The position numbers were made by a program, and so were the translations under genes. A stretch of DNA of 64,000 nt from Halalkalicoccus tibetensis (GTDB lineage: Archaea > Halobacteriota > Halobacteria > Halobacteriales > Halalkalicoccaceae), in contig NZ_JBBMXV010000002.1 of NCBI RefSeq assembly GCF_037996645.1, positions 310,001-374,000 on the forward strand, written 5' to 3'. This document shows positions 15,549 through 18,058 of the stretch, one piece after another. Position 1 is the first letter of the stretch. Each line of letters starts with the position of its first letter. The notes under the pieces are model-generated. The model worked only from the letters and a program-made list of their open reading frames with translations. It did not search any database and had not been told where the DNA came from.

Positions 15549-16514
15549 TCACTCGGGGAAGACGCTCTCGGGGACGAACGCCGTGACCGTCCAGTTGGGC
15601 GCGTCGACCACCTCGCTGATCTTCAGGTCGACGGCGACCGAACAGAGAATGTACGCCTCCGCCCGGGAGAGCCCCCGCTCGGCCGAGAGATGGTCGATCA
15701 TGTGGCGGATCGCAAGCTTGGTCGCCTCCATCAGGTCGTCGCTGATGCCGGTCGTCCCGTACATCGGCTCGTCCTCGCCGCTGGCGGTGAACGGGCCCGT
15801 CGTCTCCAGGCGGGGCTGGGCGATGTCGGCGTCCTTCTCCAGGCCGAAGCGCGCGGTGACGAACATCGGGGCTTCGATCCCGGTTACGCAGACCTCGCCG
15901 TCACCCTGTGCAGCATGACAGTCTCCCGTCGAGAACAATGCACCATCGACCTCCACTGGGAGATAGACCGTCGAACCCGCGGTCATCTGCTTGACGTCCA
16001 TGTTGCCCCCGACGTCCCGCGGCGGGAGGGTGTCGTGTTCACCCGTCTCGGCGGGGGCGTTCCCGATCGTGCCCGGGAACATGGCTAGCGGGATCTCGAT
16101 GCCGTCGACGAACTCCGCGGAGTCCTCGCCGAGCTCCCACATATGGAGCCCCGCGTCCTCGAACTCCTCGGGCAGGAGCCCGAGCCCCATCTCGCCGGGC
16201 ATGAACCCCGTAAAGCCCCAGCCTTTGTGCTCGAACTCGAGCAGCTCGACGACCAGCGCGTCGCCCGGTTCGGCGCCCTCGATCTCGACGGGGCCCGTCA
16301 GCGGGTGAACCGGGTCGAAGCTCGCGTTCGCGAGGTCGTCGACGTCGGAGTCGGGTGTCAGCTGTCCGTCGAGGGCGTCCCGACACTCGAAGCGCACGAC
16401 CTCGCCGGGTTCGACCGTCAGGACGGGGTCGAGAGCGTTGTCCCAGGCGTTGTGGACGTTCTCCGCGTCGTCGCTCAGCTCGTGGTCGATCTCGTAGTCT
16501 GTGGCCGCCATCAC
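15549..16514 (-). CDS. acetamidase/formamidase family protein
   Basis: 321 residues (or 320, since the second codon is also ATG) of the FmdA/AmdA family, which hydrolyses short-chain amides to ammonia and carboxylate. Visible signatures are GPVEIEGAEPGDALVVELLE, HAAQGDGEVCVTGIEAP near residue 200, and a closing LSAERGLSRAEAYILCSVAVDLKI-type helix, as in the family. Length is normal. It is cytoplasmic and could provide nitrogen. Upstream on the same strand lies the hairpin array and then the sugar-acid dehydratase gene. Confidence 0.85.
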   Translation of the reverse strand: MMAATDYEIDHELSDDAENVHNAWDNALDPVLTVEPGEVVRFECRDALDGQLTPDSDVDDLANASFDPVHPLTGPVEIEGAEPGDALVVELLEFEHKGWGFTGFMPGEMGLGLLPEEFEDAGLHMWELGEDSAEFVDGIEIPLAMFPGTIGNAPAETGEHDTLPPRDVGGNMDVKQMTAGSTVYLPVEVDGALFSTGDCHAAQGDGEVCVTGIEAPMFVTARFGLEKDADIAQPRLETTGPFTASGEDEPMYGTTGISDDLMEATKLAIRHMIDHLSAERGLSRAEAYILCSVAVDLKISEVVDAPNWTVTAFVPESVFPE

Positions 16515-16611
16515 ACCGCATCCTCCGCGGTCACACCCGATAAAACCGAACGTAGCGGCGAAATCGAGAGGCGGTTTCTGGCTGATCCGACGGGCAGAGC
16601 TCAGTGTATCC

Positions 16612-16782
16612 GACGAAGCTCACTCTTCATCGAACACTGCCGAACAAAGCTCGGCAAGCTTGACTTCGCTTCGCTCAGTCAAACAGCGCGAGGCGGTGCC
16701 TCGCTGGCCCGACGAGGACTCAGGCCTCGTCGAACAACGCAAATCAAAGATTTGCTGGCTTGACTTCGGCTTACGCCTCGTC
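16612..16782 (-). repeat. tandem paired-hairpin array, ~50-bp period, four units
   Basis: On the minus strand four units follow each other from the dehydratase stop codon. Each unit starts TGTTYGAY and has hairpin A, an imperfect palindrome whose centre contains a stop codon. A short RTCRRGC-type linker follows. Units 1-3 then carry hairpin B with a 7-bp stem and 3-nt loop. Hairpins A are at 16762-16782, 16711-16731, 16662-16680 and 16612-16631. Hairpins B are at 16739-16755, 16688-16704 and 16639-16655. B stems differ completely (GCAAATC, GCGAGGC, GCCGARC) yet each is self-complementary. The first hairpin A contains the real stop of the dehydratase gene. Confidence 0.8.
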
Positions 16783-18009
16783 GAACAGCTCCTCGCCCGA
16801 CACCATATGCTCCTCGACGGTGTCGAGGTCGAGGGTCAGGCCGAGACCCGGCGTCTCGGGAATGTCGATGTAGCCCTCCTCGATGACGCTCTCCTCGACG
16901 AGGTCCTCCCACCACTCCAGCTGGTAGGAGTGGAACTCCACCGCAAGCGAGTTGGAGATCGCGGTGCCGACGTGGGCCGAGGCCATCGTTGCGACGGGCG
17001 AGGAGACGTTGTGCATCGCGACGGGCATGTAGTAGGTGTCGGCGAAGTCGGCGATCTTGCGGGTCTCGCGCATCCCGCCGACCTTCGGCATGTCGGGCGC
17101 GAGGATGTCGACGGCCTGCTCGTCGACGAGCCCGCGGTGGCCGTGCTTGCGGTAGACGTTCTCGCCGGCGGCGATCGGCGTCGAGGTCTGCTCGGTGACC
17201 TCGCGCTGGACGTCGTGGTTCTCCGGGGGCACGGGGTCCTCGAGCCACCAGATCGGGTACTCCTCGAGGCGCTCGGCCAGCCGTTTGGCGCTCCCGCCGG
17301 CGAAGGACCAGTGACAGTCGAAGGCGACCTCCGCGCGGTCGCCGACGCGGTCGGTGACCGCCTCGACGATGTTCACCTTGTGGTCGATCTCCCGGTCGCT
17401 GAGGTGACGGTTCGCGCGGTCCTTCTCCTCGCCGCTGGGCACGTCGAGGTCGAACTTCAGGGCGTCGTAGCCCAGCTCCTCGACGACGCGCTCGGCCTCG
17501 TCGGCGTTCGACTCGGGCTCGCTCTCGTCGCCCGCGTGACAGTCACAGTAGACCCGGACCTGGTCGCGGTACTTCCCGCCCAGAAGCTGGTACGCAGGGG
17601 TGTCGAGGATCTTGCCGGCCACGTCGTGCAGCGCGATCTCGATGCCCGCGACCGCGGTGACGGTCACGCCCGCGATCGAGCCCTCGCCGGACATCTTCTG
17701 GATCAGGTGCTCGAACAGCCGGTCGATGTCGAGGGGGTTCTCGCCGACCAGGAACGGCGTCATCCGGTCGATGAGCTCGGGGACGCCCGCACCCCAGTAG
17801 GCCTCGCCGGTGCCGACGATCCCCGCGTCGGTGTAGATCCGCACCAGCGTCCACGGGAAGTTCCCGTCGATCATCGTCGTCTGGACGTCCGTGATCTGGA
17901 CGTCGCGCCCGCCCTCCCGTTTGGCCTCGAGCCCCATCGTGTTCGCTGAGAGCTCCCGCATCGTGTACTCGGCGTTGGGGTCGTGCAGCTGTCTGTAGTC
18001 CCGAACCAT
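16771..18009 (-). CDS. enolase-superfamily sugar-acid dehydratase (gluconate/xylonate type)
   Basis: 412 residues from the ATG at 18009, the length of haloarchaeal gluconate (Gad) and xylonate (XacD) dehydratases. Mandelate-racemase-family residues are visible: Lys185 in ALKFDLDVP, metal ligands Asp231 (AFDCHWSF), Glu257 (WWLEDPVPPE) and Glu283 (IAAGENVY), and His333 (AMHNVSSP). The enzyme would dehydrate an aldonate to a 2-keto-3-deoxy acid. A DHDPS/KDG-type aldolase gene lies 0.6 kb upstream and glucose dehydrogenase 8 kb away, so a semi-phosphorylative Entner-Doudoroff role is likely. Gluconate versus xylonate cannot be decided here. Confidence 0.8.
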   Translation of the reverse strand: MVRDYRQLHDPNAEYTMRELSANTMGLEAKREGGRDVQITDVQTTMIDGNFPWTLVRIYTDAGIVGTGEAYWGAGVPELIDRMTPFLVGENPLDIDRLFEHLIQKMSGEGSIAGVTVTAVAGIEIALHDVAGKILDTPAYQLLGGKYRDQVRVYCDCHAGDESEPESNADEAERVVEELGYDALKFDLDVPSGEEKDRANRHLSDREIDHKVNIVEAVTDRVGDRAEVAFDCHWSFAGGSAKRLAERLEEYPIWWLEDPVPPENHDVQREVTEQTSTPIAAGENVYRKHGHRGLVDEQAVDILAPDMPKVGGMRETRKIADFADTYYMPVAMHNVSSPVATMASAHVGTAISNSLAVEFHSYQLEWWEDLVEESVIEEGYIDIPETPGLGLTLDLDTVEEHMVSGEELFDEA

Positions 18010-18058
18010 ACCTCCGAGTGGCGCCCTCAACGCCAAAACAGTAGGGGTTCGAATTGAG

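Follow-up and report, generated by a model that had tools for sequence, protein, structure and literature searches.

What is the tandem series of hairpins that follows a sugar-acid dehydratase gene in Halalkalicoccus tibetensis, and how do such series arise at the end of a gene? The window, that is, the whole stretch of 64,000 nucleotides that was analysed, carries on its minus strand an enolase-superfamily (MR/MLE) dehydratase gene (16771-18036), assigned from its open reading frame, its Pfam MR_MLE_N/C domains and its PDB relatives. Its NCBIfam relatives are galactonate/gluconate dehydratases, with scores below the cut-offs, and its top named relative is that of Halalkalicoccus paucihalophilus (91% identity). 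The protein ends in ...GEELFDEA, the final codons being CTG TTC GAC GAG GCG TAA. Downstream on the same strand, an acetamidase/formamidase-like gene (15549-16514; open reading frame, NCBIfam formamidase relative, Pfam FmdA_AmdA) lies outside the element and bounds it. A sequence-only reading of this DNA had described tandem hairpin units on the minus strand from the dehydratase stop, and had proposed either a mobile or recombining 3'-end module or a structured RNA. Every element that it described is present.

The array comprises three full units of about 50 nt and a decayed fourth. In each, GTTYGAY, an in-frame stop codon in a hairpin loop and RTCRRGC together form hairpin A, within which RTCRRGC pairs with GTTYGAY (weakly in unit 4), and hairpin B follows. 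Counted from the G of GTTYGAY, the units start at 16786, 16735, 16684 and 16635 on the minus strand; the spacing of about 50 bp reported earlier was right, but the positions given then as hairpin A starts (16762, 16711, 16662 and 16612) lie about 24 nt too far downstream. Unit 1 (16736-16786, minus strand; 57.0 bits with our covariance model) reads GTTCGACGAGGCG-TAA-... GTCAAGC and then hairpin B. Its hairpin A (16758-16786, minus strand) holds in the loop the genuine dehydratase stop (16773-16771), which had been placed correctly in this unit, and its hairpin B (16736-16757, minus strand) is GCAAATC-TTT-GATTTGC; this 22-nt stretch is also found at locus L151, a different family. Unit 2 (16685-16735, minus strand; 56.1 bits) has the pseudo gene end FDEA-TGA, an 11-bp hairpin A, GTCGGGC and the hairpin B GCGAGGC-ACC-GCCTCGC. 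In unit 3 (16636-16684, minus strand; 57.7 bits), the pseudo gene end FD-TGA and the hairpin A core GAGCGAAGCGA are followed by GTCAAGC and by hairpin B, TGCCGAGC-TTT-GTTCGGCA, with 8 bp including one G.U. Unit 4 (16587-16635, minus strand; 17.6 bits) combines an 11-bp hairpin A carrying FDEE-TGA with a decayed B-like stretch. The stops TAA, TGA, TGA and TGA and the peptides before them (LFDEA, LFDEA, LFD and VFDEE) had been read correctly; the RTCRRGC linker holds for units 1-3 (GTCAAGC, GTCGGGC and GTCAAGC) but only weakly for unit 4 (GTCGGAT).

The sense strand of the array folds at -120.8 kcal/mol (z = -5.5), with none of 200 shuffles equally stable, as against -100.5 kcal/mol (z = -2.9) for the antisense strand. 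In the minimum free energy fold of the entire array, the hairpin A arm of unit 1 pairs with other units. Tandem Repeats Finder did not detect the window's array, because the stems diverge.

Is this architecture peculiar to H. tibetensis? With a covariance model built from 34 units, 74 of 145 haloarchaeal genomes and 34 of 58 genera gave matches (E <= 1e-4); because the search scored only so many candidates in each genome, weak copies elsewhere may exist. The 29 loci retrieved from the head of the list all sit at the 3' end of a gene of this dehydratase family (73-92% identity), as do 16 of 20 further regions, mainly second or weaker matches, the other four lying elsewhere. Strong matches were restricted to the dehydratase family in the genomes searched; the weaker ones away from it (L181, L188, L190 and L191) are each a single site and are only putatively the same element. 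Behind the dehydratase, about half of the sampled haloarchaea carry one to five units of about 50 bases each. Orthologs with one to several units in their 3' flank occur in Natrinema, Natronorubrum, Halovivax, Halorussus, Haloprofundus, Halogranum and others, orthologs in some other haloarchaeal species have a 3' flank without units, and full arrays are absent from about half of the orthologs in a near-random distribution. Furthermore, two more dehydratase paralogs in the genome of the window (75% and 56-59% identical) have one unit each, immediately 3' of the stop, and all three unit loci of this genome are dehydratase ends. A covariance-model search of related genomes, as the sequence-only reading had suggested, therefore recovers the same architecture behind orthologous genes, and this is the strongest independent evidence that the array is not a product of chance.

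It had also been claimed that structure is kept while sequence diverges, and random drift, with no compensatory change and no such period elsewhere, had been named as the outcome that would speak against the proposal; when this was put to the test, the proposal was not refuted. Our first count of covariation took units partly picked for structure, and it was repeated on 86 distinct units chosen solely for lying between two GTTYGAY sites 48-52 nt apart. Across these unselected units, hairpin B covaries strongly: 92% of its cells were paired, compared with 64% on average and at most 69% in shuffles and 31-38% in slid registers, and 169 cells were double-changed, compared with an average of 51 and at most 72 in shuffles. 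Hairpin A was paired in 84% (shuffles, 78%, maximum 80%) with a nearly fixed outer arm, although these counts are not independent events because the units are interrelated. The internal mismatches of hairpin B on the sense strand comprise 10 G.T and no A.C. This wobble bias matches what would be expected if the folded sense strand matters, and it suggests selection on RNA or on one DNA strand, which mobility alone would not require. The stop codon sits in the hairpin A loop, and in 75 of 95 distinct A hairpins the loop is GNA or GNRA closed by C-G (GCG-TAG-C, GCG-TAA-GC or GCG-TGA-GC), a loop type that yields DNA mini-hairpins of high stability (PMC4686876). A known RNA family was rejected, as the Rfam 15 covariance models gave no match to the array up to E = 1.

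That units 2-4 of the window resemble gene ends can now be generalized. Across arrays, FD, FDEA, FDPA or a similar ending is followed in frame by a stop in 61 of 66 middle units, compared with 1 of 66 in each other frame and 41 of 1261 control GTTYGAY sites. Among middle units ending in FDEA and a stop, variation is limited to third codon positions and the stop codon, as it is in real gene ends. Real gene ends have Leu before FD in 109 of 120 cases; middle units mostly have V, L, S or A there, because in them this codon is part of the end of hairpin B. The copied segment therefore begins at GTTYGAY, and exchange at this motif would convert a middle unit into a gene end. Extension of the protein by translational read-through was rejected, since unit spacings are divisible by three in just 28 of 126 cases.

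How stable are these arrays over time? On the dehydratase tree, array presence changes at least 34 times (58 rows with and 59 without; 39 for shuffled labels), and the strongly supported branches alone force 14 changes. Loci L160 and L162 have five and three units, respectively, and downstream DNA that is 94% identical; two of their B hairpins are identical, some A hairpins have been replaced and one extra unit adjoins the gene. The order of units differs between L165 and L185. These comparisons are all between species. Hairpin B identity is 0.586 within arrays and 0.573 between species, so the arrays are not mainly local duplications, and a simple tandem repeat was rejected on this ground and on the negative Tandem Repeats Finder result. 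However, L046 and L179 contain perfect tandem copies of units, and therefore slippage contributes. We infer that units are drawn from a pool common to the species. At L047 (3716-3880), the hairpin B of the second unit is apparently split by about 110 nt inserted at its loop.

A gene other than the dehydratase offers a parallel case. Six genomes from two genera (G029, G041, G047, G065, G099 and G119) have an NAD-epimerase-like gene, which may be the archaeal glucose-6-phosphate dehydrogenase, and behind it a repeat of the gene's final ~45 codons and stop, preceded by a hairpin pair. The displaced 3' end is clear in four fully read loci (L204, L205, L213 and L214), and at L205 it is present as two tandem copies, 206 bp apart.

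What process could account for these observations? On balance, we consider it probable that the array is a recurrent, fast-turning-over paired-hairpin module at the dehydratase 3' end, in which whole units are gained and lost at GTTYGAY. A gained unit would supply a fresh coding end and push the old end downstream, a lost one would let a downstream unit become the gene end, and the gene would never be broken, each unit remaining usable as its end. Such dynamics could arise if units insert or recombine at the GTTYGAC direct repeat, through single-strand DNA or fold-back synthesis. The mobile or recombining module of the sequence-only reading is well supported by the shifts in unit number between close species, the scattered presence on the gene tree and the pseudo gene end in every unit, whereas mobility itself is putative. 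A bolder version is possible, though we hold it tentatively: structure-recognised mini-cassettes of about 50 nt, each a hairpin pair with a replacement end, would build up precisely at the 3' ends of particular host genes and be exchanged between haloarchaeal genera by a putative recombinase acting on folded sense-strand DNA, and would then represent a novel class of mobile or recombining DNA. Y1/RAYT mobility is not required: Y1_Tnp (IS200/IS605 TnpA) is absent from the genome of the window and present in 99 of the 145 sampled haloarchaeal genomes, without association with arrays (48 of 74 array genomes versus 51 of 71 others, p = 0.38). The longest downstream open reading frames at 59 array loci included no integrase, transposase or IntI among the top 25 of 48 Pfam families. 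Viral attachment sites likewise gained no support, three consensus forms of hairpin A having no exact match in IMG/VR, a weak test as only exact patterns were sought.

The other proposal of the sequence-only reading, a structured RNA, is compatible with much of this evidence. Tandem hairpins in the dehydratase mRNA could stabilise it, stop read-through or help termination, with the fold under selection; the compensatory pairs, the more extreme z of the sense strand and the one-sided wobbles of hairpin B all fit, and there is a precedent for hairpin-driven termination in Haloferax volcanii, in which one tested hairpin gave 59% termination (PMC7237163). Yet we think such a structured 3' untranslated region somewhat unlikely as the full account, for a purely structural RNA leaves unexplained the in-frame stops and synonymous-only change of non-coding units, and also the near-random lack of full arrays in about half of the orthologs. 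Under the favoured module the mRNA would bear the sense-strand fold as well, and an RNA role may coexist with unit turnover. Could the arrays instead be a neutral product, in which fold-back template switching makes palindromes at gene ends, replication slippage multiplies them and ordinary recombination between species, acting on the region around the gene, exchanges them? The gene end is copied in inverted orientation in hairpin A, whose mostly C-G-closed GNA/GNRA loops could prime fold-back, the perfect copies at L046 and L179 look like slippage, and haloarchaea are described as highly recombinogenic (PMC3988388). Nevertheless, units from a single array resemble one another no more than units from different species do, recurrent B types are common to different families, and 34 of 58 genera with arrays at one gene family would make a strong hotspot for a neutral process, which we accordingly judge unlikely. 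Finally, an integrative element that exploits and regenerates gene 3' ends might attach at hairpin A, its repeated integration and excision leaving arrays as scars. Elements that integrate in gene ends habitually regenerate the end, direct repeats flank every unit, and the gene end is regenerated here, with a displaced 3' end also at the NAD-epimerase-like gene. We regard this as improbable, however, given that no cargo longer than about 120 nt was seen between units, that the downstream Pfam families listed (top 25 of 48) include no integrase, and that hairpin A sequences differ within an array.

No prior description of a gene-end module of this kind was found in the searchable literature, although several known systems share some of its features. 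REP/BIME palindromes with their RAYT (Y1) transposases are likewise short, often clustered, outside genes and variable in copy number, but REPs are dispersed and conserved in sequence with a GTAG tag (PMC3733652). The arrays here, by contrast, are tied to a single gene family, their stems have no common sequence, each unit carries a host gene end and Y1 is not needed. A dispersed REP was also rejected within the genome of the window, where there are only the three loci at dehydratase ends and the B hairpin has 9 sites versus 6 in the control. Integrons exist in archaea (PMC9668308), and attC/CALIN arrays resemble those described here in having tandem sites after stops, a fold kept as sequence diverges, and changes in unit order and number. 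No cassette genes lie between units, which are spaced at 47-78 nt. Furthermore, integron core boxes are GTTRRRY/RYYYAAC, and those of the units differ from this form. Integrative elements that target gene 3' ends, such as e14 in icd, also regenerate the end and displace the old one, as in the 61 in-frame middle units and the epimerase-like gene, but the units here are of about 50 nt, with no cargo or integrase found near arrays among the Pfam families listed. By analogy, the module may work like these elements and like structure-recognised attC arrays, and we claim membership in neither. The PATE, MITE and SMR elements of Haloquadratum are haloarchaeal, short, palindromic and without a transposase gene; PATEs are dispersed and relate to IS605-type transposons, SMR-A is about 110 bp with terminal inverted repeats (PMC3119063), and these elements are not known to form arrays at gene ends. 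A CRISPR array, with identical repeats and unique spacers, was rejected because both A and B vary within arrays.

If our favoured reading is true, what unites the arrays as a repeat family is a common fold and not a common sequence; the family is linked to a single metabolic gene in many genera, and gene ends are swapped in it without breaking the gene. The arrays also record, in nature, how palindromes originate and become numerous at gene ends, and they lend themselves to the study of structure-guided recombination or of tandem 3'-UTR hairpins in archaea. Comparable paired-hairpin repeats elsewhere in haloarchaea point to a broader class that has yet to be catalogued. The B type GAYAGRCGRGCGNAGYGAGYCTRTC occurs away from the dehydratase too, and of the 73 occurrences of the core GAGCGNAGYGA in the DNA examined, many of them from the arrays themselves, 44 have complementary arms of at least 5 bp; altered control cores mostly had 0 or 1 such occurrences, with 7 of 35 for the close variant GAACGNAGYGA. 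In other genomes, in the middle of loci L239-L252, lie free-standing paired-hairpin elements of about 54 bp (hp1-GGCTCG-hp2-CGGT), with arms that are variable yet complementary and a nearly constant GGCTCG linker; L242 has a tandem series. Palindromes in frame inside genes, as at L211 and in the displaced copies of L204 and L205, recall the Rickettsia palindromic elements, which belong to another lineage, have another anatomy and are not known to occur as arrays at gene ends. At L211 (approximately 1450-1530), a gene that resembles precorrin-8X methylmutase contains the paired-hairpin element in frame, close to the N-terminus of its product. In the middle of L188 and L190, a B-like hairpin, CCGAGCTCTGCTCGG, lies away from any dehydratase, apparently within other genes.
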